This document shows positions 23,671 through 58,011 of a stretch of DNA of 64,000 nucleotides, one piece after another. The notes below the pieces were generated by a model. That model was not told the origin of the DNA and searched no databases. It was given only the letters and a program-made list of their open reading frames with translations. Position 1 is the stretch's first letter. Each line of letters opens with the position of its first letter. Source of the DNA: a virus. The translations under genes and the position numbers were made by a program. The stretch covers positions 1 through 64,000 of IMG/VR virus record IMGVR_UViG_3300009702_000017. The stretch is one strand, 5' to 3'.

Positions 23671-26229
23671 TTACCTACCGTTCGGGTTACGTGAAGAGAT
23701 TGGGTGGCCTTCCTGCGACATTATCATTCCATCTCGTACCTGCACCCACGAAACAGTGCCGTCCGAATGCTCTACTTTGATCTGCCCAACCTTCCTAGTA
23801 CCACCTGGGCCCGCATCCTTCACGCTTCCCACTGGTAGATTCAAGTGATGGTGCGCTGGCGCTCCTGGCATCGGCAGATTACCAATACCTGACTTATCGA
23901 GACCTTGTTCTGACGAGTGAGAATGTACATCATACTTCCCTGGCTCAACAATATGCTCTCGTTCCTCCCTGAAGGGGTTTGAGCCAGCCCCCGAGGCATT
24001 CCCATACATGTGCGGAATGCTCACAATACTAGACTGAGGAATCCAAGCGCCAAGGAACTCCGACTTACTATCTGGATCCCAAAAGTTCTCGTTAACGTAC
24101 TTGCTATCGGGGGACCATGAGCTACGGCTTGGAATCGATACCTTTCCAGGAGCGGATTCGAAATCTACATCATATGGGTGTGCCGCTCTCCACATCAAAA
24201 ACTCCCGTTCGTTTGTAGTTGGATTCATCCGAACATCAGTGAGCCCATGAAGACGATGCAACCCGCGCTTCAAAAGGTTCTGCTCATCTTCACCATCTTC
24301 ATCCATCCTTGGAATTTCTTCTTTAGCAGATTCACCGTTATGTTGCCAAAACTCAATCTCGGATCTTGGCTCTACGGAACTTGGGGTTGCAGGCGCAAGT
24401 CTCTTCATCGCACCATCAGCCTTGTCCAACGACTCCTCTGACTTTAAGGTGTACTCGTAAGGCCCGTATGCATCGTCATACGCCTCGGGAGGCATACCGG
24501 GCTCCGTACCCTGTCCGATCTTCCTCTTGTTGATTCTCGGTGTTTCCAAGTACTCTAGTCCATGCTTCCTTGCCAATGATTCATGAACTCGTTGTGCCAT
24601 GGAAGAATGGGTGTCGCCAATAACGTACCTTGCACCGTGCTTGTGATAAGCATGAGCGTAAACGGCCTCGTATAGCGGATTCCCGAGACCCTTACCATGA
24701 AGGGCTGGGGGGAGCTGTACATAGTCTACAGACAGACTTGGCGCATCATCTTCTGCATCATCATCAAGGTAAGCACTCAAGTTATGGTATGGGTCGATGG
24801 CCATATCCTTGAAATACAAATTGCTTCTAAGTCCATGTCCATCGTCACTAACATACAGCTTGTAGCCTTCCGCCCTACGCTCTGGGGGCAATAGATGTGA
24901 GTAGTCGTAGCGCTTATTTCTTCGACCTGGGTAAGCTCCATCAATCTTTCCCGCTGGAATATCTGCGATAGCCATTTTTTCAAGTGACTCTTCTGACTTC
25001 TGAAACCGTGTGAACGCTTCTGTTACGAACTTGTGAGTACGGTAGTAATCGGGATCCTCTTTCAGATGCGCCCAAGCAATCTTGCCAGTCTTGAGGGGAT
25101 CAAAGTTGGCGATATTGGTCTGTGGATCCTCGCTATGCTCTACCTCAACCGCCATTCCAAGATGAAAGTCGTTGAGAGTGAACTGCTCATTATCGAAGTC
25201 AATACCGAGGGCTCTAGCTGTCTCGTCAGCCTCTTTCGAAGACACACCGTCCCTAAGGTTCACTGCATTGTCATGGACCTGTGCAGGTTGTCCACCAAAC
25301 TCGCCATTCTCCTCTTGAGGCGCACCAGTAGGATCGCCTGCACCCTCAACAGGATCTCCCATGTCCGCCTTATCAAGTGGCTCTGGAACTGACCCTAGCG
25401 ATCCTTCAACACGCTCAATGCGAAACTTACCGGACTCTGAAGCCCGACCCCTTTCCCTGGAATGTTTCTTGAGGGAGCGTGCCATGTCAATGACCGAATG
25501 AGTCATCATCATAAGCGTATTGTAAGCATCCGGGTCTGTCTGCTTTAGCTGCCCTAGCTGGGGGGCCTTTGCTTTGATCTGCTTCAACGCATCTACGACA
25601 CGTTGCTTGGCCATCTCAAGCGTCTGGTCATCTACGGCTGTGTTGGTCGCCTCCTTCTCATGCGTGGCCTGCGCAAGCTCGTGTAGCCGGTCATGGAAGT
25701 CCTTCGCCGCATCACCATGGTCTTCAGGTCGTTCGTCTTCTGACTTTCCAATGGGATCATCCGTAAAGGCTTTTTGCTCGGGAAGTTCCTTTAGATACTC
25801 ATCTCCGATCTTGTCTAGCTCGCCCTGACTCTTGTACTTCTCCTGGGCGCGTTGATACTCTTCGGCTGCCTCGTCGGTCCACAGAACGATGCGATTGCCA
25901 CCCCGTAGCTTGGCGACCATAAGGGCTTTGTCCCCTTCGGAGAGCTTGTAGCCAATGCCTACAGACAGGGTAGCGCCTACAGCCTTCTGGTACTTGCGCT
26001 GGACCTCTGGTAGATTTGCCACTTTGGCAGCAGGTACTCGCACCCGGGCTTCATCTCCCCCATAGGAGATCACCGTACCTCCAGATGAACGAACCCAATC
26101 GGCCACCACCTCATTGCCATGCTCGATTGCACGGCTGATTCGACGCAGCCCAGCTTCATCGTCGTTATGAGCAGCCCGCCCCACACGACTACCGATTTTA
26201 TCGCCGTCCACCGCTACATATAGGTCCAT
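23671..26229 (-). CDS. Virion polyprotein: mCpol-like cyclase, GNAT and ADP-ribosyltransferase domains
   Basis: Residues 1-125 carry VAVDGDKIGSRVG and SYGGDEARV, the paired Asp/GGDE pattern of minimal CRISPR-polymerase-like (mCpol) and GGDEF nucleotidyl cyclases. A helical linker follows. Near 500-530, LPPALHGKGLGNPLYEAVYA is the acetyl-CoA loop of a GNAT acetyltransferase. Residues 675-765 look like an R-S-E class ADP-ribosyltransferase: LMWRAAHP, RSSWSPDSKYV and EREHIVEPGKY (the ExE pair). The domains are separated by IGKSEDE, RFQKSEESLEK and TLKSEESLDKA. It lies among head and neck genes, so it is probably packaged. A motif B variant precedes the ATG. Confidence 0.75.
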   Translation of the reverse strand: MDLYVAVDGDKIGSRVGRAAHNDDEAGLRRISRAIEHGNEVVADWVRSSGGTVISYGGDEARVRVPAAKVANLPEVQRKYQKAVGATLSVGIGYKLSEGDKALMVAKLRGGNRIVLWTDEAAEEYQRAQEKYKSQGELDKIGDEYLKELPEQKAFTDDPIGKSEDERPEDHGDAAKDFHDRLHELAQATHEKEATNTAVDDQTLEMAKQRVVDALKQIKAKAPQLGQLKQTDPDAYNTLMMMTHSVIDMARSLKKHSRERGRASESGKFRIERVEGSLGSVPEPLDKADMGDPVEGAGDPTGAPQEENGEFGGQPAQVHDNAVNLRDGVSSKEADETARALGIDFDNEQFTLNDFHLGMAVEVEHSEDPQTNIANFDPLKTGKIAWAHLKEDPDYYRTHKFVTEAFTRFQKSEESLEKMAIADIPAGKIDGAYPGRRNKRYDYSHLLPPERRAEGYKLYVSDDGHGLRSNLYFKDMAIDPYHNLSAYLDDDAEDDAPSLSVDYVQLPPALHGKGLGNPLYEAVYAHAYHKHGARYVIGDTHSSMAQRVHESLARKHGLEYLETPRINKRKIGQGTEPGMPPEAYDDAYGPYEYTLKSEESLDKADGAMKRLAPATPSSVEPRSEIEFWQHNGESAKEEIPRMDEDGEDEQNLLKRGLHRLHGLTDVRMNPTTNEREFLMWRAAHPYDVDFESAPGKVSIPSRSSWSPDSKYVNENFWDPDSKSEFLGAWIPQSSIVSIPHMYGNASGAGSNPFREEREHIVEPGKYDVHSHSSEQGLDKSGIGNLPMPGAPAHHHLNLPVGSVKDAGPGGTRKVGQIKVEHSDGTVSWVQVRDGMIMSQEGHPISSRNPNGR

Positions 26230-26231
26230 GC

Positions 26232-26243
26232 CTCAAAGATTGC
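26232..26243 (-). promoter_or_regulatory. Motif B variant before polyprotein gene
   Basis: The minus strand reads GCAATCTTTGAG, three bases before ATG 26229; a transcript from here would have almost no leader. Confidence 0.4.
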
Positions 26244-26263
26244 TGCGTAGGCTTGAAAAAGCG

Positions 26264-26280: not shown

Positions 26281-26296
26281 GTATCTTGAGGGAACT

Positions 26297-26590: not shown

Positions 26591-26611
26591 TTGATGAGAA
26601 AGGTTAGAGAC

Positions 26612-27684: not shown

Positions 27685-27699
27685 AATAGCAGTACCAGT

Positions 27700-27783
27700 G
27701 GCCTTCTGGTGGAATTTGGTAGACACACCTGATTCAAAATCAGGCGCCCCTAGGGCATCCCGGTTCGATCCCGGGGAGGGCCA
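27700..27783 (+). tRNA. tRNA-Leu (anticodon CAA)
   Basis: Acceptor arms GGCCTTC and GAGGGCC pair. The anticodon stem CCTGA/TCAGG holds loop TTCAAAA (anticodon CAA). The T arm is CCCGG-TTCGATC-CCGGG. A long variable arm is present, as expected for Leu. CCA is not encoded. Confidence 0.9.
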
Positions 27784-27784
27784 A

Positions 27785-27862
27785 TCCCCTGTAGCAGAAT
27801 TGGCATATGCGCTGGACTTAAAATCCGGGTCATTGTGGGTTCGAATCCCATCAGGGGTACCA
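27785..27862 (+). tRNA. tRNA-Leu-like (anticodon UAA) with short variable loop
   Basis: The acceptor TCCCCTG pairs with CAGGGGT except for a U-U mismatch at the first position. The anticodon stem CTGGA/TCCGG holds loop CTTAAAA, anticodon UAA, reading UUA. The T arm is GTGGG-TTCGAAT-CCCAT, and CCA is encoded. The variable loop is only about six bases, whereas Leu tRNAs normally have a long variable arm, so its charging is uncertain. It starts two bases after the first tRNA. Confidence 0.75.
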
Positions 27863-27872
27863 ATCGAATAAC

Positions 27873-27957
27873 GGGAGCGTGGCGAAACTTGGTAGACGCA
27901 CCAGACTTAGGATCTGGTGGCCGAAAGGTCGTGGGGGTTCGAGCCCCCCCGCTCCTA
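27873..27957 (+). tRNA. tRNA-Leu (anticodon UAG)
   Basis: Acceptor arms GGGAGCG and CGCTCCT pair (one G-U). The anticodon stem CCAGA/TCTGG holds loop CTTAGGA (anticodon UAG). A long variable arm follows (GGCCGAAAGGTC). The T arm is GGGGG-TTCGAGC-CCCCC. CCA is not encoded. Confidence 0.9.
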
Positions 27958-27979
27958 CTCACAAACACAGGAGAGAGCA

Positions 27980-28213: not shown

Positions 28214-28296
28214 CCTATCGAGTAGGTGCCTGGAAGTGGGTAGATTTCAATAGTGAAGAGGGCTGGAAGTACCGGGAAGAGAGGGGTATCGAGTGA
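28210..28296 (+). CDS. Tiny ORF, 28 aa
   Basis: A GTG overlapping the previous stop (GTGA) opens VTYRVGAWKWVDFNSEEGWK, ending shortly before the pentapeptide gene. The coupling and Trp-rich sequence suggest it may be translated. No family is recognised. Confidence 0.3.
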   Translation: MTYRVGAWKWVDFNSEEGWKYREERGIE

Positions 28297-28312
28297 TGAA
28301 CAAGGAACAAAA

Positions 28313-29353
28313 ATGATTGTCATACACCACATCAACGGAACCGAAATCTATACCAGCCAAGCAACTACTAACGTCAAGAAGGCTCTTGAGGAGGGAGTCA
28401 AGAAGGGAGTTCCTTTCGAGGGTGCCAATCTGGAAGGTACCTATCTGGCTGGTGCCAATCTGACTGATGCCAATCTGACTAATGCCAATCTGGCCAGTGC
28501 CAATCTGGTTGGTGCCAATCTGACTGGTGCCGATCTGACTGGTGCCGATCTGAAGTATGCCAATCTGGAGGGTGCCTATCTGGCTGGTGCCAATCTGGCC
28601 AGTGCCAATCTGGTTGGTGCCAATCTGAAGAATGTCGATCTGGAAGCTGCCTATCTGAAGGGCACCAATCTGACTGGTGCCGATCTGACTGGTGCCGATC
28701 TGAAGTATGCCAATCTGGAGGGTGCCTATCTGGCTGGTGCCAATCTGGCTAGTGCCAATCTGGAAGGTGCCGATCTGAAGAATGTCAATCTGGCCAGTGT
28801 CGATCTGGCCAGTGCCGATCTGACTGGGGCCTATCTGGTTGGTGCCAATCTGAAGAATGCCAATCTGGAAGCTGCCTATCTGAAGGGTGCCGATCTGAAG
28901 TATGCCAATCTGAAGTATGCCAATCTAAAGGGTGCCGATCTGGATGGTGCCAATCTGAAGGGTATCAATCTGGAAGGTGCCGATCTGATTGGTACCGATC
29001 TGGCCGGCACCAATCTGACTAACGCTATTCTGATTGGTGCCGATCTGGATGGTGCCAATCTGAAGAATGCCAATCTGGCCGGTGCCGATCTGGAAGGTGC
29101 CAATCTGGTCAGTGCCGATCTGACTGGTGCCTATCTGAAGAATGTCGATCTGGGTGGTGCCAATCTGAAGGGGGGCTATCTGGCTGGTGCCTATCTGGCT
29201 GGTGCCTATCTGGCTGGTGCCAATCTGGCTAGTGCCAATCTGGAAGGTGCCGATCTGAAGGGCGCCGATCTGACTGGTGCCAATCTGAAGAATGCCAATC
29301 TGACTGGTGCCGATCTGAAGAATGCCAATCTGGAAGGGTGCCTGCCTGCTTGA
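28313..29353 (+). CDS. Pentapeptide-repeat protein
   Basis: This 346-residue protein starts at ATG 28313 (AAGGAAC upstream), not at the earlier ATG of the open frame. After a leader like that of the paralogue at 1-498 ([15 protein letters not shown]) it has about 60 continuous A(N/D)LxG-type pentapeptides. They predict a long right-handed quadrilateral beta-helix of about 15 coils. Gyrase-protecting pentapeptide proteins are shorter, so the role (DNA mimicry, virion or host interaction) is open. The DNA itself is a degenerate 15-base repeat (GGTGCCAATCTG units). Confidence 0.9.
28425..29340. repeat. 15-base degenerate tandem repeat
   Basis: About 60 head-to-tail copies of a 15-base unit of the form GGTGCCAATCTGANN encode the pentapeptides. 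Some 60-90 base blocks recur nearly exactly (for example around 28525 and 28675), indicating block duplication. Confidence 0.8.
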
Positions 29354-32797: not shown

Positions 32798-33022
32798 ATG
32801 GACAAGACTGCTAGAACCGAAGAAGCTCAACAGGCTTGGAGAGAGGCGCAGCGACAAGCGTACCAATGTACGCTGGCAATCGTGACCGCCAAGACCCGCG
32901 ACGAAGAACTGGAGGCGCGTGAGCGCTACGACAAGTCCCTACACGACCTTTCGGTCACCAAGAGCTTGTTCGATTCCTCGCGGACCCGTGACAAGGCTTT
33001 AGGCCACCCCATGGAAGCCTAG
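32798..33022 (+). CDS. Hypothetical helical protein, 74 aa
   Basis: ATG 32798 after GGGGGAAAC opens an all-helical charged protein (RTEEAQQAWREAQRQAYQCT). It runs against the virion genes and shares a CTAG stop with the convergent gene. It is similar in layout to the plus-strand gene at 22534. Confidence 0.6.
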   Translation: MDKTARTEEAQQAWREAQRQAYQCTLAIVTAKTRDEELEARERYDKSLHDLSVTKSLFDSSRTRDKALGHPMEA

Positions 33023-34377
33023 AAGCCGGCCCAGAGGGCATTGATCACTTTGTCCACGGGTCTGGTCTTCGCAAGCCCTTGGATGCGCTCAAGACGCGCT
33101 ACGCTCGAAGAGGGATTGATCCCATACGAGCGAAGCTCCTCTCCGAGTTCAATGCCAGACAGGGAATCCACCCATGCCTTCAAGGTGTCTCTCGCGGACT
33201 GTGAGACGGTGGGTAGGTACTGTAGCTTCTCCTTTGGAGGAAGCTTGTGGAATTCCTTTGGCGCGGCGTAGCGTAGGTAGTACGGTACAAAGCTAAGTTT
33301 GTCCCGACCGGGGTTGAAGCCTGGACCTGCAAAGGCAGAGCCATGGTCAATAAGTCGTACCGTGAGTGATTCTGGATCTACCATGAGGTTCTGGGCATGG
33401 CCATCGGGGTTGCCACACACATAGTCCAATACGGCCCATTTGTGAAGTGTCCCATCGAGATACGGCTGAAACACCCTCGACGCGAAACCAGGGTCATTCT
33501 CATAACGATAGATAGTCTGGAACTTCCACGGAAGCAACCGGATGGCAGCAAACTCCTTGCCGTTTAGGAGCAGGAGGTTCGCCTCCGGTACCCAATCGCC
33601 TAGTCCCCATCGGTCAGCCACAGCTGAAAATGCCGCCTCTCTAACCGGCTGTGAGGCTTGTTCCTCGCCCACACCTGCCGCCGGAGAGACGGCACCCCAG
33701 TCCGGCTTCAAAAGATAGCTATGTCCCTCGGGGTCCTTAGCGAGCAGTGATCCTGTCGAGTGCTTGCCCGGCAATGTGACAGGCTGAGCAACCCCCTCTT
33801 CGAAGGAGCGGGAGACACCGATGGCAGCCTCTTGGTCACGCGGGGCAACCGCCTCTACCACCACACGCTCTGGTACTCCAGCTGACCTACCCAGAGCCTT
33901 GTTGAGGTCTGCTACGGCATCCAACGCGCTCAAGTGCTCTTCGGATGGATCTAGACCATAGGCTCGTAGTGCCGCAGAACGAATGTCGCCCCCCTCATGA
34001 TAGAGAGCATGCCTCATCGACTCTAGGTTGAGCGTATGCCTAGAGCCCGTCAAGAACTTGGCAGCTGCAAACGCATCGTAGAGGTGAGGAACGAATCCGT
34101 GCATATCGCGGAGAGTCCGGTTGGTACTTGCCTTTAGATTATCACTCTTAGCCAAGGCGCCTTCCCACTCCGCAGACGAATCCGACCCGACGATCCGAAT
34201 ACTCACAGCCTGCATACGATCCAAAGCGTCGATTAGTTCTTCGAGGGACCAATGGTACGCCTCAGCCTGCTCCTTGAACCATGGGAACTTCTGTAGGAGA
34301 GCCGCCTCCAACTGGGCTGGCGTACCAGCCATCGGTTCGTTCTCTCCTAGGTAATGGTGGTCAATCTCGATCTTCAT
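33019..34377 (-). CDS. Kinase-like virion polyprotein (PI3/4-kinase or HipA-like fold)
   Basis: 452 residues. The N-terminal part (1-75) ends at ALAKSDNLKAS, then a helical region follows. Residues 205-370 look like a kinase: a Gly/Ser loop (GKHSTGSLLAKD), ATP-binding Lys in YLLKPDWG near 221, catalytic GNPDGHAQNLMVD near 320 (Asp, His, Asn) and metal-binding RLIDHGSAF near 342. This set matches the PI3/4-kinase, HipA and Fam20-like group. Substrate unknown. The gene lies directly downstream of the Nudix polyprotein, within the virion operon. Confidence 0.7.
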   Translation of the reverse strand: MKIEIDHHYLGENEPMAGTPAQLEAALLQKFPWFKEQAEAYHWSLEELIDALDRMQAVSIRIVGSDSSAEWEGALAKSDNLKASTNRTLRDMHGFVPHLYDAFAAAKFLTGSRHTLNLESMRHALYHEGGDIRSAALRAYGLDPSEEHLSALDAVADLNKALGRSAGVPERVVVEAVAPRDQEAAIGVSRSFEEGVAQPVTLPGKHSTGSLLAKDPEGHSYLLKPDWGAVSPAAGVGEEQASQPVREAAFSAVADRWGLGDWVPEANLLLLNGKEFAAIRLLPWKFQTIYRYENDPGFASRVFQPYLDGTLHKWAVLDYVCGNPDGHAQNLMVDPESLTVRLIDHGSAFAGPGFNPGRDKLSFVPYYLRYAAPKEFHKLPPKEKLQYLPTVSQSARDTLKAWVDSLSGIELGEELRSYGINPSSSVARLERIQGLAKTRPVDKVINALWAGF

Positions 34378-34378: not shown

Positions 34379-36937
34379 CTACCATCCGTTCTCTGCCCTT
34401 ATGCGCGCGTACTCTTCCTCCTCTTCCTCCTCTGGGGTCTTTTCTCCAGGTGAGTAGATAGGGATCGCAGTATTATGCCAGCCTGTGCCGAAGTTGTCAA
34501 GTCCAAGGTCGTGCATCTGATCGAGTAGATCCGCGCGGGTGTTGAAGTTGCGTCGCAGATGCGCCTGTGCATCGGGGTCCTTGATGAGTTGTAGCCTGCT
34601 CTCGAATGCCTTGCGGACATCTGGCCCAACCTGCCCCCACCAATCTATGATCGGTTCGTAGCGATGCAAGCGATCCATGTCGTAGTTGTAATTGGTCTTG
34701 TCCCGCACGTCGATGTAGTTGTTGAAGGGATCTACAGCACTGATGCCACCTTGTAGATAGCCCCTCGGCATATCCTCCAAGTAACCTCCGTTCTCTCGCC
34801 TGAAATCCCTCACCTGTGTCTTGTTAGCACCGAACAACGCAGCGGGAATGCCATACTGGTACGAGAGCGAATGATCGATAGCAATAGGATCACCACGCTT
34901 ATTAATGAGAAGGTTGCCTGAGTGACGATCGGTGTTATGAGACAGGAAGTCCATCAACGCAATCTTGCGAACGTTCTTCCGCGCGTCCTTGTTTGGCTTG
35001 TTTCTGCCGTAAAAAACAGGATGGGCGTTGTCTTCCATATGTACAACCAACATCGGAATGGTATTGCCATCTGGTGCGGTCTGATTAGCTACGTGTACGG
35101 CCTGATGTAAATGCGGAATTCCCGCTGCCTTGTAAAGCTCTTGGTTCGTCATCTCGGCCCAACCGCCCAGAGGGTAATGAGTAAGCAAATTACGGAACTC
35201 AGACGGGAACTTCTCATGGTACGGCTTAATGAGATACTTGTCTCCGTTATCATTCTGAAACACACGCTTGCGAGTGTAACCCCCTACATCTTCGTGGTCA
35301 GGCTGCCACGACTTCTTGGATGTCTGCATATCCTTGAAGCGCGCCAAGGAGCCTTCGTGGTTGTGCGGCACAACCTCAAGCTCTGGTGCAACGTCTACGA
35401 CATCGTTTGCCTTTGTATCAGTCGCCTGAGCGATTCCTTTGAAGTGACGAGGATGAAATGTCTTCCGCAGATTTCGAAGATATTGCGCTAGATCCCCCTC
35501 GAACTTGTGAAGGGTATCCTTCCAAGTAGGCTCGCCTCGGATCGCCTTTCGCTTCGCCAAGTCTTCATCAGTCACGATACTACTTCGCTGACCATTCCCT
35601 TCGGGAGCCCAAAGCAACTTGGGATAAGTCGCATTCTCATTCTTGGGATGTAACTCCCAATCGTAGATCGGTAGATTGAATTTCTTAAGTGCTTCGATGT
35701 GCTCTGCACTCTTACCGGAAGGCCCTAAATGTATCGCCTGTACATCTCTAGGCAGATAGATGCCTCCGTGGATCTGCGCTTCCATGTAGTCTATAGCGTT
35801 GTTCCTCGGATAATAACCGTGTTTCCCAACAATACTCTTTAGGTACCTGACCCTCTCTAATCTATGGGGCCCCAAGTGCCCAACGCGATAGTCAGGTCTA
35901 CTTCCCACCTTCTTAATTGGATTGTGAGCGAACACATACGGAACCACAGGATCCGTCGCAAGATAAGTATCCCGATGCGGATTAGGGTTGAAAGATGACA
36001 AAGACGAATCCGAATACGTTACAGTAGACCTTAGTTTTACTTCTGGCTTCAACTCCAACCAACTGTGACCATACGCCCTAGCTGCCCCAAGCCCTTTGTT
36101 GTCAGCGTTGTAACCCCAGTGAAGCGCACCGTACAGAGGCCGCTCGTGCGCCGGAACAGTACGATCAAGACCAAGCGCTTGATATTCCCAACGCATTCTG
36201 GTGTTAGGTTCCCTCTCGCCTATACCATGCCCTGTTTCAAGGAGGTTCATCATACGCCCATTTTCAAGCATTCCCTCTATAGCACGGATCGGAAAATGTA
36301 TCACAAGTGGAGCGTTTCTGAAATGTTCTACGGCGTTGGGATGGGTGGATACCTTAACGTCATAGTCATCGTTCCCTAGACCACGAAAAAACTCCTCCAA
36401 CAGACGACCGTTTTCATAGTACTTCGGCTGGAGCTCCTCAAAGATGTTATGAAAACCTGCGGGCGTTGACTTTTCCAAGTCATCAAACGATTCCTCAGAC
36501 TTCTTCATATCTCGCTTGTAGTCAACGATACCAAGCTTCCTCAAAGTGACATTCTTGCGAGCGTGCAAGTTATCGAGAATGGACTCTGGTACCTTTTCGG
36601 GATCCACCCAGCAAAACTCTTCACATTCCTTGTCGGGATCGTTCTTTCCAGACACCTTCCCGTCTACCTTCGCCTTGAAAACGAATACCTTGATGTTCTT
36701 GCGATGCTTGTGGGGCCGTACAATCGTTTCGTTGCCAAGGTACTCAAGCTCGGTAGCCTTGAGGTTTGATTCCTCTAGAAGCTCTCGCAGGGCAGCGTGA
36801 ACGGGTGTCTCGCCCTCTTCCACATGACCTCCAGGGAGGGTCCACTTACCAGAATCAAGGCGACGCCCGAATAGAAGCTTCCCGTCAGGGCGGAATGCAG
36901 CAACCGACGCCACACGCTTAGTAGGCTTCTTGTCCAT
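34379..36937 (-). CDS. Virion polyprotein: Nudix hydrolase, DUF3626 and kinase-like domains
   Basis: 852 residues. Residues 8-135 are a Nudix hydrolase with an intact box (GHVEEGETPVHAALRELLEE, near 36-58). The linker MKKSEESFDDLEKST follows. Residues 170-460 match DUF3626 (RPLYGALHWGYNADNKGLGA, then YMEAQIHGGIYLPRDVQAIH). Residues 540-800 are kinase-like: YLIKPYHEKF, catalytic HNTDRHSGNLLI near 674 and IAIDHSLSYQ near 686. The three parts also appear in other polyproteins here. Nudix enzymes cut nucleoside diphosphate derivatives such as NAD or ADP-ribose. Linker and context suggest packaging. Confidence 0.75.
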   Translation of the reverse strand: MDKKPTKRVASVAAFRPDGKLLFGRRLDSGKWTLPGGHVEEGETPVHAALRELLEESNLKATELEYLGNETIVRPHKHRKNIKVFVFKAKVDGKVSGKNDPDKECEEFCWVDPEKVPESILDNLHARKNVTLRKLGIVDYKRDMKKSEESFDDLEKSTPAGFHNIFEELQPKYYENGRLLEEFFRGLGNDDYDVKVSTHPNAVEHFRNAPLVIHFPIRAIEGMLENGRMMNLLETGHGIGEREPNTRMRWEYQALGLDRTVPAHERPLYGALHWGYNADNKGLGAARAYGHSWLELKPEVKLRSTVTYSDSSLSSFNPNPHRDTYLATDPVVPYVFAHNPIKKVGSRPDYRVGHLGPHRLERVRYLKSIVGKHGYYPRNNAIDYMEAQIHGGIYLPRDVQAIHLGPSGKSAEHIEALKKFNLPIYDWELHPKNENATYPKLLWAPEGNGQRSSIVTDEDLAKRKAIRGEPTWKDTLHKFEGDLAQYLRNLRKTFHPRHFKGIAQATDTKANDVVDVAPELEVVPHNHEGSLARFKDMQTSKKSWQPDHEDVGGYTRKRVFQNDNGDKYLIKPYHEKFPSEFRNLLTHYPLGGWAEMTNQELYKAAGIPHLHQAVHVANQTAPDGNTIPMLVVHMEDNAHPVFYGRNKPNKDARKNVRKIALMDFLSHNTDRHSGNLLINKRGDPIAIDHSLSYQYGIPAALFGANKTQVRDFRRENGGYLEDMPRGYLQGGISAVDPFNNYIDVRDKTNYNYDMDRLHRYEPIIDWWGQVGPDVRKAFESRLQLIKDPDAQAHLRRNFNTRADLLDQMHDLGLDNFGTGWHNTAIPIYSPGEKTPEEEEEEEYARIRAENGW

Positions 36938-38405: not shown

Positions 38406-38742
38406 CCTCCACCTCCGATTGTGTAGGCTTGGGTTCGTCTTCTGGAAACAGACCACTCTTACTCAAAACCTTGGCGACTTGCACCGTAGCTTCGTAGAGT
38501 AGAGCGTTGTCAAGCAAATCCGCCAGAAATTGAGTATCACCATGCTCCTTGACCAAAAACAAGTAGTCTTGATCGATGTGCTGGAGTACTGAAATCGCCT
38601 GTTGCAAGTTCTGGTCAGCGGCGTACTCATACGCAATATCCAGAAGACACTTGGCCATGCCTTCATCTCCAAAATCCTCTGATCCGTGATGAAGAACCGC
38701 CTTTAGGGTCTGCTCTAGGCGTTCTTTTTGCTGTTGATTCAT
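38395..38742 (-). CDS. Hypothetical helical protein, 115 aa
   Basis: All-helical acidic protein with TPR-like spacing (AKCLLDIAYEYAADQNLQQA, then LADLLDNALLYEATVQVAKV). Starts overlap the methyltransferase stop (ATGA). No family is recognised. Confidence 0.55.
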   Translation of the reverse strand: MNQQQKERLEQTLKAVLHHGSEDFGDEGMAKCLLDIAYEYAADQNLQQAISVLQHIDQDYLFLVKEHGDTQFLADLLDNALLYEATVQVAKVLSKSGLFPEDEPKPTQSEVEDVQ

Positions 38743-42147: not shown

Positions 42148-42168
42148 CTAGGTATACAGCAAGAAAAC
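42148..42168 (-). promoter_or_regulatory. Motif A promoter of the thyA operon
   Basis: The minus strand reads TTTTCTTGCTGTATACCTAG, about 30 bases before the ATG at 42120. It overlaps the stop codon of the HNH-Mom gene. Confidence 0.65.
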
Positions 42169-46884: not shown

Positions 46885-48115
46885 TCGGTGGCTTATCCAG
46901 AGGCTCAAATGGAATGACTCCTTCTCTGCCAGGAACAGCAGAATGAGCATATAGCGCATGGGGCGCTCTAATCGATCCGACTCGTGCTTCTGGGTCACCA
47001 CCTAGCGCCGCTACAGCCGATTTCTTCTGAACCTTCGCGCCACTGTTCAGGGCAAAGTCGGCTTGCTGGGGGGTCTCGCCAAGGCCAGCCGAGATAGATA
47101 GCTTGTGCGTACCGCCAACAGCAGGAACCCCTTCAAGCTCTGTGCACAAATGACAGAGGAACCGACTAGCGTGCTCATACTGGGGAAAGTGAGCACTGAA
47201 CTCGTCTCCACCAAACCGATGAAGCTTCCCCTGTGGATCCTGACCTTCATAGGTTCTCGTCATGGCTCGCTGCATGGCGTCTCCCATCGTACGAATAGCA
47301 TTGTCGCCCTGCTCATGTCCAAGCTCATCGTTGATGCTCTTGAAGTCATTGGCATCCATCATCACATGAACACCCTGCCGTGCAGGCTGTGTTTCCAAAA
47401 AGTCGCGATAAGCTCTCTTGTTGCCAATCCCCGGAACCATCTCGTCTTCAAACAGTTCCTTGCGAATGGTGTCATAGTCTTCTGGATCAAGATGCCCTGC
47501 ATCAACAAGCGAGCGAAGCTTATCCATCGAGCCGGTAACTGGAGACTCGGCCTTGATCAACTCGTAGAATGCGTTCTTAGTCTTCTTCACGGACTTCTCC
47601 AAAGTCTTTGTGTAACGCAGAGTAGCAAGTCCCTGCTCTACATTCTGTACGATTCGCTCGATTTCCTGCAATGCAAGCGGAGCACCATCCAAATGCGCAG
47701 TTCCTTCGATATACTCAAGCAAACGCGGACGTTCCATTCCTACCCTCTGATACAGGAATGAGTTCGGTCTGTCTGCAATGGCTTGTGCTGGCTCATCTGG
47801 TTTCACGTCCAGAGAACCGTTATCGTCGCCACCATCTTCTGCCTCAAATGGCTTCAATAGCTCTGGATACAACCCTTTCCTGACATCTCCCTTCGAGACG
47901 ATTTGGAAGTAGGGGTGCTTCTTCATGCGCTGCAAGAAATCTAATGTTCCCTGATGACACACCCCTTCTGGCAAGTCGCTCAAATGCTCGAAGTAATCCG
48001 ATAGCACATGTAAACCATCGTCTAGAATGGCAAACTTCCCTGAGTGCTGTCGATGTACACCACTAGAATGAGGACGAATGACGTACACGTTGTAGATGTG
48101 ATCGTAGTCTAGCAT
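46817..48115 (-). CDS. GGDEF diguanylate-cyclase domain protein in the capsid operon
   Basis: 432 residues. Residues 225-385 are a complete GGDEF domain: VHVMMDANDFKSINDELGHE with the metal-binding Asp and substrate Asn, LHRFGGDEFSAHFP with an intact GGDEF near 301, and HKLSISAGLGETP. No RxxD inhibition site is visible five residues before GGDEF. It should make c-di-GMP (or a related dinucleotide) if folded. The N-terminus is unlike known sensor domains. The gene lies between the scaffold side and the protease-kinase gene, suggesting a packaged enzyme. Its stop region overlaps the zinc gene. Confidence 0.8.
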   Translation of the reverse strand: MLDYDHIYNVYVIRPHSSGVHRQHSGKFAILDDGLHVLSDYFEHLSDLPEGVCHQGTLDFLQRMKKHPYFQIVSKGDVRKGLYPELLKPFEAEDGGDDNGSLDVKPDEPAQAIADRPNSFLYQRVGMERPRLLEYIEGTAHLDGAPLALQEIERIVQNVEQGLATLRYTKTLEKSVKKTKNAFYELIKAESPVTGSMDKLRSLVDAGHLDPEDYDTIRKELFEDEMVPGIGNKRAYRDFLETQPARQGVHVMMDANDFKSINDELGHEQGDNAIRTMGDAMQRAMTRTYEGQDPQGKLHRFGGDEFSAHFPQYEHASRFLCHLCTELEGVPAVGGTHKLSISAGLGETPQQADFALNSGAKVQKKSAVAALGGDPEARVGSIRAPHALYAHSAVPGREGVIPFEPLDKPPIRPPESPKPVQTGQNPFSTVNA

Positions 48116-48127: not shown

Positions 48128-50731
48128 TTATACCGACCCGGGTGGTTGCCAAGCATCTGGGTTTCGAGTTATCTGGTTAAACGAAGCCTTTGGATTCTGC
48201 TCATGACGAAGTTGCATCCTCTGAAGCCTCTGCCCAGCAAGAGTTCCCGCTCTTTCAAGCCGATACTTGTCCGCCAACCTCCTTACCTCGTTGGGGTCAA
48301 GGCCCCTTAGCCAATCAGCAGCGTTTTTATGGAGCGGTTTTGTCAGATCCAAATCGTCATTGTAATCTAGATACTCCATATCCCTGCGCCGCTCATTAGC
48401 CATTGTATTTCCATGATCAATTAGATACATGTTATCGCGATTTGGCCCACCGAAGAGAAAATTCCCCCTATGTCTATCTTCATTATTAAGAACAGTATCA
48501 AAAAGACCAAACCTGTGAAGCGTACCATTGTCCTTCATCCGCTGCAAAATGTCTCGGGTTGTACTTGTCTTAGTATATCCGGATTCCGCATTCTCCACAC
48601 CCTCTTGTACAGACATCTCTCGCTCTCTATTCCTTGGATCGAGTATGTGCGCAGTCACAGGAACATGATCCCCAAGGCCAAAACTCTTAGCTAACTCATA
48701 CGCAAAAGCCTCTTTTCTTGACATAGGATCACCATGTAGGCTAGACTTGACAAGGACAGGCTTCCCATGGGCACCAAGACGCCAATGTGTGCTATACGCA
48801 CCGGAGTCCGCCAAACGAATCAAAGGCGCCTCCGATAAATCAAGCCCATGAATCAAGGCGCGCTGTTCTTCGCTCTGCGGTGTAATGATATGCTTGTCGG
48901 CGTCCACTACAGTTGGAGCGCCATATTTCATTGGCAACCGATGGAGGGTATAGGACGAACCCTCTCCCAAACTCATACGTTTCGGTTCGCCACCTTCTTC
49001 GCCAATCTTGTGGCCGTAGGCTAACCCTAGTTGTCCCTTGACGCCGCTTCCTGTGAATTCGTAAACCTTGTACCCATTGCCATCATTACCAGTTGCGTAT
49101 CCCGGCTTTATGGTTTGCCCTTTCCATTCCACAGGTTCCATCTCTGGAATCTCAACCGAATTCTCCGACATGGCCTTGGCAAGCCTAGCAGCCTCAATAG
49201 CAATTCTGTGCTTTCGTAGATCCCTTTCAAGCTGTGTCCTAGGCTCAGACTTCTCTGTTGGCTCTTCTAGATCCTGTTGCTGAACGCCCAAGATTCCATG
49301 AATGGCTTGACGTATCCTCTGATGCCTATACAAATCGTCTTCATTGTCAATATGTGGCTCGAAAAATACCTCAGGAACAAAGCTGCTTGAAATAGAATTA
49401 GGCCCATCTTCATTAGACCACACTCTGGCGGCCTTGGTAGGCTTTAGGACAAAGCCACCTCGTTCCAATGCACGCAATACGTTCGGACGGAAGTATTGCT
49501 TTAGATGTTCTGGCTTACGAAACCCAAACAATATAGGATTGGGGTGTTGTCCCGAAAACCCGTGATGAAACATATGGTAATCGGAAGGATCAAAGGTTTT
49601 TTCGGGCCCAGGTTGATCGGTGATCCTAAGATCTGCCCTTTCAACCGGATCGTCGGAATCACTGTATCGTCGAATAGCCTCGAACCCAGCACCTTGGAAT
49701 GGCCCTTCTCCATCATCGTTCTCAAACCGATATACTGTCATCGGATTCTTGGGATCATTGTGGATGAGCGCCATCTTGGCTAGCTTCACCTCGGCCTTCT
49801 TCAGTCCAAATACCGAAACAAGCTTGGCGAACTTCTCTAACGTCGCGTCCTTGTCCTCTGACTCTGCCAATACACCACCGAGACGATTGGCCAGGAACTT
49901 CTTCAGATCGCCCTTATTGGGATCGTAGTCACGCGCCGCCGCCTTCGCTTGACTAAGTAGCCACAACTTCTTGAGACGAGCAGACCGATCCTCACGCTGA
50001 AGAGCAGCACCTCCTACCAACCCACCGGGAGCAGCACTAGGGACACTGGCAGCAAGTGCCTTACCAAGCTTTCCCTCTGTCACAACAGGATTCGAGTACA
50101 TCGTTACTTGTCCGGCGAGATGACGGTAGTTGGGGTGTTGTAGCTCGCTCTTGTTGATGTTCTCTAGGATGTCCTCCTTCGCCTTCCGAGGCTTGCTGTC
50201 GTCTACCTTGGGATCGTACACCAAGCCACTGATGGCAGTCTTGTTACAAGGCTTGACAGTGATGGCGACTTGACGCATAATGGTACGCTTAAGACGATTT
50301 CCCTTGCGCTCAAGGGTTCCACCCTGGATACTATACCTCACAAGCAACGGCTCGTTGTGCTCAATCTGGTCACGCACGATAGCCGCCAGTGAAACAGCAT
50401 TGAGATGACCGGATCCATCAAACAGACGCACCATCCCATACAGAAACGGGACCTTGATCTCATCCCAGTAGTGCCTCTGCCGATCGGTTTCGCAATCGCC
50501 CTTCTTGAAAATTTTCTTGACGTAGATGATCTTACCTACGAAATCGTTCGAAGAAGCTCCGTTTGCCTCTTCGTCACGATGCTCCCAGTTAGCGAGCGCC
50601 TTTCCTTCCTCGCCATCGCTGATATCTACGCCCTTAATCTCCAGGATTTCACCAGACGAATCAATGGCCTCTGTACCAAAGGCACCATCAATAACCATCC
50701 CCTTGGACCTACTGGTGTCTGGCAGCTGCAT
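48128..50731 (-). CDS. Virion polyprotein: prohead-protease-like and kinase-like domains
   Basis: 867 residues from ATG 50731, directly after a motif B element. Residues 1-165 resemble phage head-maturation proteases (VDISDGEEGKALANWEHRDE, then LLVRYSIQGGTLERKGNRLK) and the gene is close to scaffold and capsid. After NINKSELQ comes a helical part. Around 330 a YRFENDDGEGPF domain of unknown type follows, then TEKSEPRTQ. Residues 600-867 are kinase-like: VLVKSSLHG (ATP Lys), NNEDRHRGNFLF near 757 and YLIDHGNTM near 769. The open frame extends to 50815 without support. Confidence 0.65.
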   Translation of the reverse strand: MQLPDTSRSKGMVIDGAFGTEAIDSSGEILEIKGVDISDGEEGKALANWEHRDEEANGASSNDFVGKIIYVKKIFKKGDCETDRQRHYWDEIKVPFLYGMVRLFDGSGHLNAVSLAAIVRDQIEHNEPLLVRYSIQGGTLERKGNRLKRTIMRQVAITVKPCNKTAISGLVYDPKVDDSKPRKAKEDILENINKSELQHPNYRHLAGQVTMYSNPVVTEGKLGKALAASVPSAAPGGLVGGAALQREDRSARLKKLWLLSQAKAAARDYDPNKGDLKKFLANRLGGVLAESEDKDATLEKFAKLVSVFGLKKAEVKLAKMALIHNDPKNPMTVYRFENDDGEGPFQGAGFEAIRRYSDSDDPVERADLRITDQPGPEKTFDPSDYHMFHHGFSGQHPNPILFGFRKPEHLKQYFRPNVLRALERGGFVLKPTKAARVWSNEDGPNSISSSFVPEVFFEPHIDNEDDLYRHQRIRQAIHGILGVQQQDLEEPTEKSEPRTQLERDLRKHRIAIEAARLAKAMSENSVEIPEMEPVEWKGQTIKPGYATGNDGNGYKVYEFTGSGVKGQLGLAYGHKIGEEGGEPKRMSLGEGSSYTLHRLPMKYGAPTVVDADKHIITPQSEEQRALIHGLDLSEAPLIRLADSGAYSTHWRLGAHGKPVLVKSSLHGDPMSRKEAFAYELAKSFGLGDHVPVTAHILDPRNREREMSVQEGVENAESGYTKTSTTRDILQRMKDNGTLHRFGLFDTVLNNEDRHRGNFLFGGPNRDNMYLIDHGNTMANERRRDMEYLDYNDDLDLTKPLHKNAADWLRGLDPNEVRRLADKYRLERAGTLAGQRLQRMQLRHEQNPKASFNQITRNPDAWQPPGSV

Positions 50732-50733
50732 AC

Positions 50734-50745
50734 CTAATAGATTGT
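50734..50745 (-). promoter_or_regulatory. Motif B promoter
   Basis: The minus strand reads CACAATCTATTAGG, directly before ATG 50731; the transcript would be nearly leaderless. Confidence 0.5.
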
Positions 50746-50808
50746 GGGGGAGCAAAAAAGGGGGATCCGTCTCTCCGAATGCGCATCGCAGAAATACCAA
50801 AGTAGTGC

Positions 50809-50837
50809 TTGACATCTAGAGCGGCTAGCGGTATAAC
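50809..50837 (+). promoter_or_regulatory. Strong sigma70-like promoter
   Basis: TTGACA (50809-50814) and TATAAC (50832-50837) with a 17-base spacer, 21 bases before the gene at 50858. It is the closest match to consensus in this window. Confidence 0.85.
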
Positions 50838-53686: not shown

Positions 53687-56600
53687 CTTGTAGCAGGCAC
53701 CCACCCTTTATCAAAGGTGAAGCTACCTTGCGTACCGTGACGCCTCTGGTGTAGCTGTGTGAGGAAGTGCTCAAAGTCGGTACGTAAGTTCGCCTTGCGC
53801 GCCAGCATAGCGTTCTCGCGTTCCTGGCGACGTGGAGTTCCCGGAGGGAAGAACTTGTCCAGATACGGAGAGAACTCCCTCAGATACTCGTGATCGGGAA
53901 TGGACTGTGCACCTCTGATGAACGGTTCTAGCTGCTGTGGATCAAAATCCATACGGTTGTCCGCAAATGCATGCCAGAAGTTGTTGTAGTACGGCGCCGG
54001 AGTGCCATACATCGCATTTGGATTGTAGTCAAGTGCCAAACGATCATTCGGGAAGTACCTGAATGCCTGTTCCTTATCGATAGCAGCAATCCTACCATCC
54101 TTGCGCACGATGAAATTGTCCGGGTGACTGTCGTGCTGGGACATCAGCCAATCGGCTACGTGAGCGGCCCCAACGTCCCTCTTCTGCACATCCGTTAGCT
54201 TGGACGGTGGGATAGACCTCAACGTCCCTGTCGTGTCATAGAGAGGCTGCACGGTGGCTACATTGTCACCGTTATTCACTCGATGGATTGGCACCGCAAC
54301 TGGATTGAACCTACGCTCGATACGCGACAGCGCCTGCTGCACATCGGCTCGGAATGGCTCTGGCTCGCCCGCTTTTGAAAGTGCTGGCTTTACAAGCCAC
54401 TTGCTTCCGTTCTTGTGCTGCGGTCCCTCGTAGATGTGCTTCTCACCCGCACCTCCAAGATTAGCTCCATTCCGAACATACTGAAGCTCATGGAACTCTG
54501 GTTCTTCGTCGCTTTTCCCTAACTTCTCTTCGGTCTGTGTCGGGGCGTACACTTGTTGTATATCACCCTGTTCCCCATGCCTGAACACTGGGATGTTGTA
54601 CTTCTTGCCCAAATCAACAAGTTGTGCTGCCCGGTCAGCTGCCCTTTCCGCGTAGTACGACGAAGATTTTTCGAGATGTGGATAATGCAATGAAGCAACA
54701 TCCTTACTCAAGTCTACTCCACCATGAATATGTGCTTCTGGTGCATTTATAAAGCGATCTAGCTTACTCCCGTTCGCCAACCCAATAATAGGTGACTGCG
54801 AGTTCAATCTATTCGGGAGCACACCCAGTCTTGGATTTCCGGTGGTGGTTTGAAATATATTCTGAAATGCAATTATACGAGGAAATTCTGATGTTACAGG
54901 ATGAAGATCCGCTCCCTCCCTAGGGGACATTCCAGTCGTACTGTCAGCGATATATGCGGTATCGTCACCTGTAAAGGTAGACCGATCCTTAACATGCGGC
55001 TTTAACTCTGCCCAATAGTCCCCATACCCACGGGCGCCCCCTCGATCAAAAGTCAAATTAGGATGACGACTAGCTATATGTAATGCACCGTATACCGGCC
55101 GATACTTCCCATCCAAATCCCTGGGGAATTTGAATACACTTTCATCCCACTTTTCTCTGTCGGGCCTATCATCTCCCCAATCGCTAGGCGTCCCGTTTGC
55201 GAAGGTATTCACAAATCTCCCACGCCTCATTAGTCCAGCAATGGCTTCGTGAGGGAAATTCATGGTAATTGGAGCTTCCTCTACATACCTGATGATCTCT
55301 GGATCCGAAAGAACCTTGTGATAGAAGTCGTATCTATTTTGCAACGGAATACCAGCCGCATCGTTCTGCATCGTCCTAATCACTTTATTGAAATCCGGGT
55401 TACTTGGATTGAACACATTGGCAAGGTACTCGGTCCAAACCTTACCATTGTTCCTCCAAGTAGGAGCATTCGGCTTAAATATCTTATCAATAGCTTCCGG
55501 GGAATGCTTTCCTAGCTTCTCTTCCTCTGGCAATGGAAGGTGGACCTGTTCTACCTTGCCTGTGTCACGATCATGCTTGAACACAGGAAGATTGTACTTC
55601 TTACCAAGCTCTACCATGTCGTTCACCTCACTGGGAGCTATAATCGACGAGTAGTGTAACGAATGTACGTCGTCTGGTAAATGAACACCTCCATGGATCT
55701 GCGCTTCAATTGGCCGAGTACCATTGACACGATACGCAGTCTTATCTACCTTATGCAAATCTGGATGAAGCCAATTCAAAAGTGCGGCACCTGTTGTCTG
55801 AACCATACGTGGCTTCTGGTCTACTAGATCGTTAGGATTGGCAAAGAATAGGTGCTGATACGCAAGCGCTTTCGGGTGATTGATCGTGACAGGCATCCTA
55901 TGTGCATCTGGCCCACTATACGCAAATGTATCGTGTCCCGTGAACGTAGACCTATTCTTCACATGATCATGTAGCTGCGCCCACGCTGCCCCATACGTAC
56001 TATGGCCTCCATATTTTGCTGTATCGCTGTCGTCTCTATTGGTTATGGCAAGAGCACCATAGATGGGTCGGATGGGTCCGGTCTTCATCAAATCTTCCAC
56101 AGTGTCACGATCACGATTAAACGGGAATCCAAATACATCCCGTTCAATGCTCGGCCTCAACCCAGAATAGGAATCTCCCCCGTTTGCATCTGGGTGGAAA
56201 GCGTTGAGGAACTTCCCATCCTTTAGTAATCGTCTAGCCGTAGGTGGATTGAAATTGACAGTGATAGGTGCTTTCTGAATTGCATCCAATAGCTTCTCGT
56301 CGAAGACGGGAGCATGCTCTTTGAGTGATGGATTCAAGCGATCGTTGATGAAATCTTCCCAGTCCTTTCCGTTCTGTCGAAATCTCTCTACGTTCGGTTC
56401 CCAATACTGCTTGATCGCTTCCCGTGAGTGCTTTGCCAGCTTGGACTCGCTCTTCCCAATATCATCCTCTTCGGGACTCCAGGTACCACGGTTGAAGACA
56501 GATTTGATCTGATGAGGATGAAAAGCAATGTAGCCTGTCCCTCCTTCGATCTCGTTAGGATACACAACACCGTCGTAGCCTTGATCCAGGAGCTTACGCT

Positions 56601-58011
56601 TCAGTGCTTGTGCCAGTTCGTAAGCGACCTCGTGAGATCCAGTCTCCCGATCCCTTCCAATGAGGTCTAGGTGCACTTCCCTTCTATAGTCGGCGTCGTT
56701 GTCATACCGATCCCACCCCGGGTCATCGGGATGCCGGCCGATCCAACCATAAGCCTCTGGCAAGTCACTCAAATGGCCTGGAAGATCCTGCTCTAGGATC
56801 ATGTTCGATAGCTTATCTTCGTCTACATAGAGAGGATTGCGGAGCGATAAATAAGCTGGGATGACGCGCCCACCAACGTTTTCGTCGCCTTCGCCGTGGA
56901 AACGGCTATCCCTCCAGTCGCCAGTCTTCTGCGATCCAGTAAATGCGCTTCCTACCTGTGGAGAATCACTGAAATGTGCGCCCAAGAACGAATTTGGGTC
57001 CCCGCTAGATCCAACAAACGGACCCTCAAGCTCCTCTTCATCAGGCTCATATGGGTCAGCTCCATTAGTGCTAAACTCACTGAAGTTCACAGGCGAGTTC
57101 GTACCATGGTACACTACCTTGGGTCTATTGTTCTCTGTGATCTGAGAACCATTGAACCAGTGCTTGAACGCTGGGCTGTTTTCCATCGAAGGATCTCGTC
57201 CAGACTTCGGTTCATCGAACATAGCCAGCTGTTCCGCCTTTTCAAGAGGGCGCTGCTTCTCCCACTCGTCCCACTTCGGTCCCTTGTAGGTCACATGGCC
57301 GTTGTGGTCAAAGCCATATCCAGGCATGAGGGTAGCTATCGTACATCTACAATGCGGGTGCTCCCCAGCAATGCTCGGTTCATTGTCTCCACGCTTATGG
57401 TAGCCGGCCTTGCATTCTGACAAGCGCCATAGTCTCGGCGTTACATCGTCTTCGTTCAAGTGAAGACGCTTACACTCATCACACAGATGCTCGTCATGTA
57501 CGACCACGAAATAGACAACTGGATCGTTTTCTCCAACGTCCTCATTGATCTTGACGATTCCCTCTAGAGCACCAAAGGCACGTCCGTTCTGCGCCTCGCT
57601 ATCGATGATTGTCTTGACATTCTTGCCGACCTCACCCCATACATCCGTGAGCTTTCCGTTCAACACCGTCTCTACGTCAGTGTCGATGCCCTGAGCCTTC
57701 GCATCCGCGAGGAACGAAGATACTTCGTTGACGACCTTGGCCTTTGCATTAGCGCGAGAGGCATCGAGATAGTTTTCTGCAACGGATAACAACGACTTCA
57801 ATACCCGAGGATTTCCATTGACCCCTTCCGCCTCTGCGGCAGTAAGGTACAAGCCCGGAAGAGACATCCGCGACTTACGACCAAACAAGATACGCTTGTC
57901 GATGCTACCTTTTCCGAGGAAGCGAGACTTGGCGCGGTCAAACATTTGATCGATGAGACTATCGATCAACTTGAGAGCGGCGCCAGAGAGAACGTAGTGC
58001 GGCGCTGGCAT
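53683..58011 (-). CDS. Virion polyprotein: MuF head protein, ADP-ribosyltransferase, two DUF3626 domains, kinase-like domain
   Basis: 1442 residues. Residues 1-260 are a MuF/SPP1 gp7-like minor head protein (VHDEHLCDECKRLHL near 175, then HPHCRCTI), in its usual place after the portal. Residues 275-525 match ART-PolyVal: KVVYHGTNSP, LGAHFSDSPQVGSAFTG and GYDGVVYPNEIEGG. Two DUF3626 copies follow (540-830 and 850-1160; EAQIHGGVHLPDDVHSLHY and EAHIHGGVDLSKDVASLHY). The C-terminus is kinase-like (SQHDSHPDNFIV near 1289, then AAIDKEQAFRY, with Lys replacing His/Gly of the usual DH motif). The joints read IGKSESKLAKHS, EEKLGKHS and EEKLGKSDEE. Confidence 0.8.
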   Translation of the reverse strand: MPAPHYVLSGAALKLIDSLIDQMFDRAKSRFLGKGSIDKRILFGRKSRMSLPGLYLTAAEAEGVNGNPRVLKSLLSVAENYLDASRANAKAKVVNEVSSFLADAKAQGIDTDVETVLNGKLTDVWGEVGKNVKTIIDSEAQNGRAFGALEGIVKINEDVGENDPVVYFVVVHDEHLCDECKRLHLNEDDVTPRLWRLSECKAGYHKRGDNEPSIAGEHPHCRCTIATLMPGYGFDHNGHVTYKGPKWDEWEKQRPLEKAEQLAMFDEPKSGRDPSMENSPAFKHWFNGSQITENNRPKVVYHGTNSPVNFSEFSTNGADPYEPDEEELEGPFVGSSGDPNSFLGAHFSDSPQVGSAFTGSQKTGDWRDSRFHGEGDENVGGRVIPAYLSLRNPLYVDEDKLSNMILEQDLPGHLSDLPEAYGWIGRHPDDPGWDRYDNDADYRREVHLDLIGRDRETGSHEVAYELAQALKRKLLDQGYDGVVYPNEIEGGTGYIAFHPHQIKSVFNRGTWSPEEDDIGKSESKLAKHSREAIKQYWEPNVERFRQNGKDWEDFINDRLNPSLKEHAPVFDEKLLDAIQKAPITVNFNPPTARRLLKDGKFLNAFHPDANGGDSYSGLRPSIERDVFGFPFNRDRDTVEDLMKTGPIRPIYGALAITNRDDSDTAKYGGHSTYGAAWAQLHDHVKNRSTFTGHDTFAYSGPDAHRMPVTINHPKALAYQHLFFANPNDLVDQKPRMVQTTGAALLNWLHPDLHKVDKTAYRVNGTRPIEAQIHGGVHLPDDVHSLHYSSIIAPSEVNDMVELGKKYNLPVFKHDRDTGKVEQVHLPLPEEEKLGKHSPEAIDKIFKPNAPTWRNNGKVWTEYLANVFNPSNPDFNKVIRTMQNDAAGIPLQNRYDFYHKVLSDPEIIRYVEEAPITMNFPHEAIAGLMRRGRFVNTFANGTPSDWGDDRPDREKWDESVFKFPRDLDGKYRPVYGALHIASRHPNLTFDRGGARGYGDYWAELKPHVKDRSTFTGDDTAYIADSTTGMSPREGADLHPVTSEFPRIIAFQNIFQTTTGNPRLGVLPNRLNSQSPIIGLANGSKLDRFINAPEAHIHGGVDLSKDVASLHYPHLEKSSSYYAERAADRAAQLVDLGKKYNIPVFRHGEQGDIQQVYAPTQTEEKLGKSDEEPEFHELQYVRNGANLGGAGEKHIYEGPQHKNGSKWLVKPALSKAGEPEPFRADVQQALSRIERRFNPVAVPIHRVNNGDNVATVQPLYDTTGTLRSIPPSKLTDVQKRDVGAAHVADWLMSQHDSHPDNFIVRKDGRIAAIDKEQAFRYFPNDRLALDYNPNAMYGTPAPYYNNFWHAFADNRMDFDPQQLEPFIRGAQSIPDHEYLREFSPYLDKFFPPGTPRRQERENAMLARKANLRTDFEHFLTQLHQRRHGTQGSFTFDKGWVPATS

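Follow-up and report, generated by a model that had tools for sequence, protein, structure and literature searches.

Predicted head cargo polyproteins and a shared linker motif in a virus contig related to Myxococcus phage Mx1

We analysed the window formed by bases 1-64000 (64,000 nucleotides) of the 121,050-bp virus contig IMGVR_UViG_3300009702_000017 from IMG/VR, in which five long genes and a gene for a GGDEF protein join putative enzyme domains within the head and neck operons and have a short linker motif in common with other head proteins. More than 50 proteins are common to the contig and Myxococcus phage Mx1, a cultured phage of 169,621 bp with a contractile tail, and their order is largely conserved. 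Relatives were drawn from IMG/VR by scans with a portal alignment (57) and a capsid alignment (80), and dozens of IMG/VR relatives are syntenic with the contig. A search of genome collections for a clue to the host gave no capsid relative.

Gene order and domains of the head and neck operons

A preliminary description of this DNA had placed the six genes in the head and neck operons, and a direct check of the window found all six open reading frames (ORFs) on the minus strand at the coordinates listed below. The module runs from terminase (61133) through 60119, the portal (58011), the MuF protein P0006, P0005 and P0004 to a small protein (45957), a scaffold-position protein (45029), the major capsid protein (43591) and, after further genes, 36941; P0003, P0002, the neck genes, P0001 and, further on, the tail sheath (17357) follow. 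From terminase to sheath this order matches that of Mx1. An arrow marks the predicted cut within each site; ART denotes ADP-ribosyltransferase and AF2 AlphaFold2.

23671-26229 (-) P0001
25885-26220 (-) mCpol in P0001, wider stretch 25820-26229 (Pfam PF18182, 1.1e-14)
25744-25752 (-) predicted cleavage linker IGK↓SE after mCpol, residue 162
25039-25230 (-) DUF5661 in P0001 (Pfam)
24997-25005 (-) predicted cleavage linker FQK↓SE at the DUF5661-GNAT joint, residue 411
~24460-24972 (-) GNAT in P0001 (Mx1 homology)
24421-24429 (-) predicted cleavage linker LDK↓AD at the joint of GNAT and the ART-like region, residue 603, with a KSE 7 residues upstream (596)
~23905-24417 (-) ART-like region of P0001 (alignment, AF2/Foldseek)
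33019-34377 (-) P0002, an N-terminal region and then a kinase; Mx1 homologue 38% identical
34147-34155 (-) site LAK↓SD in P0002
33028-33810 (-) kinase in P0002
34379-36937 (-) P0003
36578-36919 (-) Nudix in P0003 (Pfam 2.8e-21)
36500-36508 (-) site MKK↓SE in P0003
35681-36280 (-) DUF3626 in P0003 (Pfam 1e-15)
34538-35305 (-) kinase in P0003
46817-48115 (-) P0004, an N-terminal domain and then GGDEF
47552-47560 (-) site LIK↓AE in P0004
47066-47428 (-) GGDEF in P0004 (Pfam 1.5e-12)
48128-50815 (-) P0005
50201-50713 (-) predicted prohead protease domain of P0005 (AF2/Foldseek)
50150-50158 (-) site INK↓SE in P0005
~49985-50071 (-) element in P0005 resembling the capsid N-terminal arm
between that element and the kinase (-) phrog_1106 domain in P0005
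48206-48943 (-) kinase in P0005
53683-58011 (-) P0006
57247-58011 (-) MuF in P0006 (weak Pfam match, 0.015; 49% identity to Mx1 MuF)
57238-57246 (-) site LEK↓AE in P0006
56488-57132 (-) ART-PolyVal in P0006 (Pfam 6e-13)
56452-56460 (-) site IGK↓SE in P0006
55543-56235 and ~54532-55419 (-) DUF3626 copies in P0006 (Pfam)
54514-54522 (-) site LGK↓SD in P0006
53722-54504 (-) kinase in P0006
58011-60185 (-) portal P0007 (Pfam portal)
59997-60005 and 58167-58175 (-) motif sites near the N- and C-terminus of the portal
45029-45907 (-) scaffold-position protein, between the protease/GGDEF genes and the capsid gene; homologue Mx1 WNM70326; phi-x-KSE sites (phi, a hydrophobic residue) at residues 240 and 250
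43591-44988 (-) major capsid protein, 57% identity to the Mx1 capsid protein
44950-44958 (-) capsid N-terminal LVK↓ALEGG

The Nudix, DUF3626, ART-PolyVal, mCpol and GGDEF domains of the preliminary description have Pfam matches, and its MuF and GNAT assignments are borne out by homology to Mx1, the latter through P0001 residues 411-626, which are 36% identical to an Mx1 stretch that passes Pfam Acetyltransf_1. Its third domain for P0001, an ART at the C-terminus, is probable but not proven. An R / S / ExE pattern is invariant there in 12 aligned sequences and an ART heads the Foldseek PDB list for the AF2 model, with several ARTs placed high, at non-significant values (E ≥ 0.37), while Pfam and hhalign gave the assignment no support. 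In the same protein the mCpol active-site DGD and GGDE are intact. Of 12 related contigs (132-182 kb), 10 carry an mCpol domain that clears the Pfam cut-off, and on this distribution mCpol looks ancestral in the clade; its active site is intact in most members and lost in Mx1 and L126, so that not every member needs mCpol to be catalytically active.

Searched as one profile, the three DUF3626 copies match PDB entries 7dn8 and 7dn9 (1e-15), which we take to be structures of SopF, an ADP-ribosyltransferase. R, S/T and E positions are conserved in the copies, and we predict the DUF3626 domains to be SopF-like ADP-ribosyltransferases. The GGDEF domain of P0004 keeps its catalytic residues.

Each kinase domain of P0002, P0003, P0005 and P0006 falls below the Pfam cut-off, but a Lys, D...D....N and ID are invariant across six aligned copies (two from Mx1), one Mx1 copy passes the PI3/PI4-kinase cut-off and the profile matches PI4KA. 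The shared kinase noted earlier in four proteins thus stands, as a predicted PI3/PI4K/HipA-like domain in which the ATP-binding Lys, the catalytic D....N and the metal-binding D all appear to be present. The idea that it gives these proteins a shared packaging or regulatory function was rejected. Of 12 related contigs, 6 lack the kinase, which is therefore not needed for assembly; as it keeps its catalytic residues and also occurs as a stand-alone gene, it seems to be simply a further enzyme.

The protease region of P0005 had no Pfam match, and its assignment comes from structure prediction. An AF2 model built from 45 relatives, with the Mx1 rows left out, has a predicted local distance difference test score of ~95 over residues 40-200, followed by a low-confidence linker, and its top-ranking matches in the PDB are herpesvirus proteases and T4 gp21 (Foldseek 4v07, probability 0.99; 2pbk, 0.99; 5jbl, 0.95; E 0.003-0.01). 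H79 and S162, presumably the catalytic His and Ser, are invariant among the 45 sequences, and the gene lies near the portal and scaffold genes, ahead of the capsid gene. The model therefore identifies the P0005 N-terminus as a prohead protease of the herpesvirus/T4-gp21 fold with a confidence that the E-values make probable rather than strong.

A hydrophobic-x-Lys-Ser/Ala-Glu motif in head proteins

The module that these proteins have in common is not the kinase but a short linker motif, phi-x-K-[SA]-E. In the head region of the contig, [LIVMF].KSE was observed 13 times against 0.7 expected from shuffling (maximum 4 in 200), compared with 2 observed and 1.3 expected elsewhere in the contig, and Mx1 gave the same picture (head, 12 vs 0.7; remainder, 1 vs 2.6). 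Family head loci held 461 against 52 expected and a set of mostly unrelated phage loci 7 against 8.7, although the family totals count related sequences repeatedly and the two single-genome tests are cleaner. The excess in head-module proteins was ~9-18 fold, and KSE was the top over-represented tripeptide. Per 1000 residues, phi-x-K-[SA]-E reached 17 in scaffold, 7.7 in protein class 32388 and ~1.2-2.8 in cargo and protease proteins, compared with ~0.2 in the capsid, terminase and MuF classes and 0 to 0.1 in the adaptor and decoration classes. Scaffolds of relatives carry up to 12 sites.

Sites concentrate at domain borders. Within recognised domains we counted 15 of 208 sites, against 90.8 expected (p 9e-32), and 11 of the 15 were in portal cores. 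Among the control motifs, two reversed versions showed no such exclusion, RSE showed some, and the near-variant K[SA][GNTQ] showed a weaker one. A DNA-level repeat was considered as the source of the motif and rejected: no two of the 24 strict sites in the head region have the same 15-mer, which argues for selection on protein rather than DNA, and KSE is written with 23 codon combinations across the family.

In Mx1 separate genes encode the P0004 N-terminal domain and the GGDEF domain; here a single gene encodes both, LIK↓AE marks their junction, and most relatives with the same fusion also have a site there. Mx1 MuF is a cargo-free protein of 268 aa, and the 1,479-aa Mx1 NUDIX protein holds GNAT, ART and Nudix pieces that are spread over three proteins here. 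What follows the protease in its protein is, in relatives, often a kinase or the pair of P0004 N-terminal domain and GGDEF. The order of Nudix, GNAT, ART-like, DUF3626 and kinase pieces varies widely, and cargo modules change carrier between phages while linkers persist. GGDEF, Nudix and kinase are each found in 6 of the 12 related contigs, the same six. DUF3626 is also joined to MuF or portal, often together with another ART or a 2H phosphoesterase, in four loci of unrelated phages (L153, L166, L186, L211), where KSE was not enriched.

The capsid protein begins with a related element. LxK-ALEAG..NAAPSxLxQGxAL was found at the capsid N-terminus in 68 of 69 relatives. It recurs in 23 of 72 protease proteins, usually 14-184 residues past the protease domain; all of 1,725 other proteins lack it. 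The capsid protein is distantly related to that of Herelleviridae, in which the scaffold occupies the same place in the gene order. In Listeria phage A511 the mature capsid start is annotated at ALK↓SFTTGYG, in a record that states no method for the cut, and phage 812 has VVK↓SFQTGYG, with PDB chain 9row comprising 439 residues, without the first 24 of the 463-residue form. Scaffold-position proteins of Goe2, LysYB1 and 812 contain 11, 8 and 7 phi-x-K-[SA] sites, where about one is expected. A cut after Lys is favoured because KSE and KALE align on Lys and because Herelleviridae have K↓S at the homologous position; a cut after Glu, as in T4 and SPN3US, is not favoured, since the two do not align on E.

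Several other features of the contig were noted. A low-complexity protein of 531 aa that adjoins the sheath gene (19910-21505, minus strand) holds several phi-x-K-[SA]-E sites and is possibly another inner head protein. Adjoining the capsid gene, a single ORF (42168-43511, minus strand) combines an HNH endonuclease with a Mom-family (DNA modification) domain, and an N6/N4 DNA methylase is encoded at 38739-39368. Three tandem tRNA-Leu genes with anticodons CAA, TAA and TAG occupy 27699-27958 (plus strand), a pentapeptide-repeat protein lies at 28253-29353, and contig positions 69310-71154 encode a GroEL homologue that shares 49% identity with the Mx1 protein. The contig ends (1-406 and 120906-120978) consist of 15/30-bp repeats, both of CAGATYGGCA type and seemingly on opposite strands, so that the contig may stop inside a repeat.

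Predicted packaging and cleavage weighed against alternatives

Domain identities, the enrichment and positions of the motif, and clade-wide conservation of the module are observed; from these we infer packaging, cutting, injection and host targets. In the reading that we consider likely, cargo polyproteins enter the prohead, the prohead protease frees separate enzymes and these are later injected. On this view all six proteins, the GGDEF protein included, would be head cargo polyproteins that incorporate inner head proteins (protease, MuF) or are attached to them, and would go into the prohead together with scaffold, protease and MuF. There the N-terminal protease of P0005 would cut linkers of the form hydrophobic-x-Lys↓Ser/Ala-(Glu/Asp), and by the same rule the scaffold would be broken down and the N-terminus of the capsid protein (LxK↓ALEAG), perhaps also the portal, trimmed. 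As the sites avoid the enzyme domains and fall in linkers, the products would be separate intact enzymes: mCpol, GNAT, some four or five ARTs, Nudix, GGDEF and four kinases. Ejected with the DNA, they may modify host proteins and alter NAD/ADP-ribose and cyclic-nucleotide signals. The earlier proposal of a pre-made enzyme kit packaged in the virion is thus well supported as an inference, with cargo fused to protease and MuF and a motif common to scaffold and capsid, and 'polyprotein' probably holds in the strict sense of domains built for cutting apart.

Several points weigh against this. Virion presence and cutting in the clade are read from sequence rather than proteomics, and the scissile bond is carried over from the distant Herelleviridae, among which the A511 scaffold-position protein had no motif excess. 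A strong site is absent at some joints (DUF3626-kinase in P0003; DUF3626-DUF3626 in P0006, with only KHS), a few sites fall in portal cores, where they are probably buried, and half of the sampled genomes have no kinase, Nudix or GGDEF cargo.

The motif could also be a binding or loading signal, and a capsid-loading (core-targeting) tag that binds the capsid interior or scaffold, with cargo remaining full length, is the alternative that survives best, though we judge it unlikely. One element is common to the capsid N-terminus, scaffold, protease and cargo, and internal proteins of T4 and P1 use targeting sequences (PMC9958956, PMC9024508), yet the sites stand at domain junctions, often one to each, and not at one end, up to 12 per scaffold resembles degradation, and the homologous Herelleviridae position is annotated as a cut. 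One short sequence can be both loading tag and cleavage site. We regard as quite improbable that the enzymes act only during assembly, modifying head proteins or the late host, and are degraded or leave the head before DNA is packaged, with no injection: the T4-type scaffold core is degraded and its fragments leave (PMC9958956), but here the scaffold is full of sites and enzyme domains are almost free of them, which suggests that the enzymes are spared. That these are ordinary cytoplasmic late enzymes, fused to head genes by chance and joined by a neutral linker habit of the clade, is in our view very unlikely. In its favour, mCpol lies in the neck/tail part of the operon and the head localisation is predicted from sequence; against it, the motif is unenriched outside the head region of these genomes and nearly absent from outer head proteins, and DUF3626 or ART is joined to MuF or portal in other phages as well (PMC9503650 and the loci named above).

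If cargo polyproteins are indeed packaged and cut, a five-residue motif predicts which phage proteins are in the head and where they are cut from sequence alone, virion-injected effectors become directly predictable for a whole, mostly uncultured clade, and the linkers amount to a natural swappable protein-delivery format. More tentatively, and to us doubtfully, in this clade of myoviruses any enzyme that a phi-x-K↓(S/A)E linker attaches to a head protein would be loaded, cut free by the prohead protease and injected, and the ancestral mCpol, a cyclic-nucleotide synthase resembling CRISPR polymerases, could refill the Panoptes decoy messenger or flood cyclic-nucleotide defences of the host at infection.

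Comparison with known systems

Already known are ARTs carried in the head (T4), head and ejection proteins that a protease processes (SPN3US), virion proteins with several enzymes, and Nudix fused to the capsid peptidase. T4 packages the ART Alt in its head and trims core and capsid proteins by proteolysis (PMC9958956), and this locus resembles the Alt, IPI-III and gp21 system in its predicted herpesvirus-fold protease, packaged ART and trimming of core and capsid. T4 cargo, however, consists of separate proteins that lose small N-terminal peptides, whereas here several enzymes are joined in one chain by cleavage-like linkers and the prohead protease itself carries cargo. In phiKZ and SPN3US (gp245, AXE motif), as predicted here, one protease and one short motif serve capsid, portal and internal or ejected proteins, and the SPN3US protease has a C-terminal propeptide, a likeness to P0005 (PMC10052503). 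SPN3US cuts after E and removes propeptides, while the predicted cut here is K↓S/A and would separate enzymes.

The proteins also fall under the description of polyvalent proteins, since several enzyme domains of unrelated kinds share one phage polypeptide encoded within or beside the virion genes. Polyvalent proteins are likewise virion-linked and multi-enzyme, with ART, GNAT, kinase and GGDEF domains, and an assemblin-like peptidase is predicted to process some of them (PMC5512222), while Nudix joined to MuF, portal or capsid peptidase has been noted (PMC9503650). In that work the peptidase is C-terminal, whereas here it is N-terminal and the kinases are PI3/4K/HipA-like, and the parts of both papers covered describe no cleavage code, which here is readable across the clade. 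Among the papers covered we found no precedent for a cleavage code that splits the enzymes of one chain and is common to scaffold and capsid clade-wide, nor for mCpol as a near-constant virion-operon gene. DUF3626, which is carried by SopF (PMC6682159), is here by contrast a cargo domain inside a phage polyprotein.

Two catalytic Asp positions are reported for OptS, the mCpol cyclic-nucleotide synthase of the anti-phage system Panoptes (PMC12657218), and the DGD and GGDE of P0001 are plausible counterparts. No dedicated search for an OptE or 2TM-beta effector was made; the genes around mCpol encode neck and tail proteins and are conserved in Mx1, and for this reason we do not file the locus as Panoptes. 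Unlike in Panoptes, mCpol is here phage-encoded, placed in a virion operon and inactive-looking in Mx1 and L126, such that, if the reading holds, phages carry an mCpol enzyme until now known as bacterial defence.
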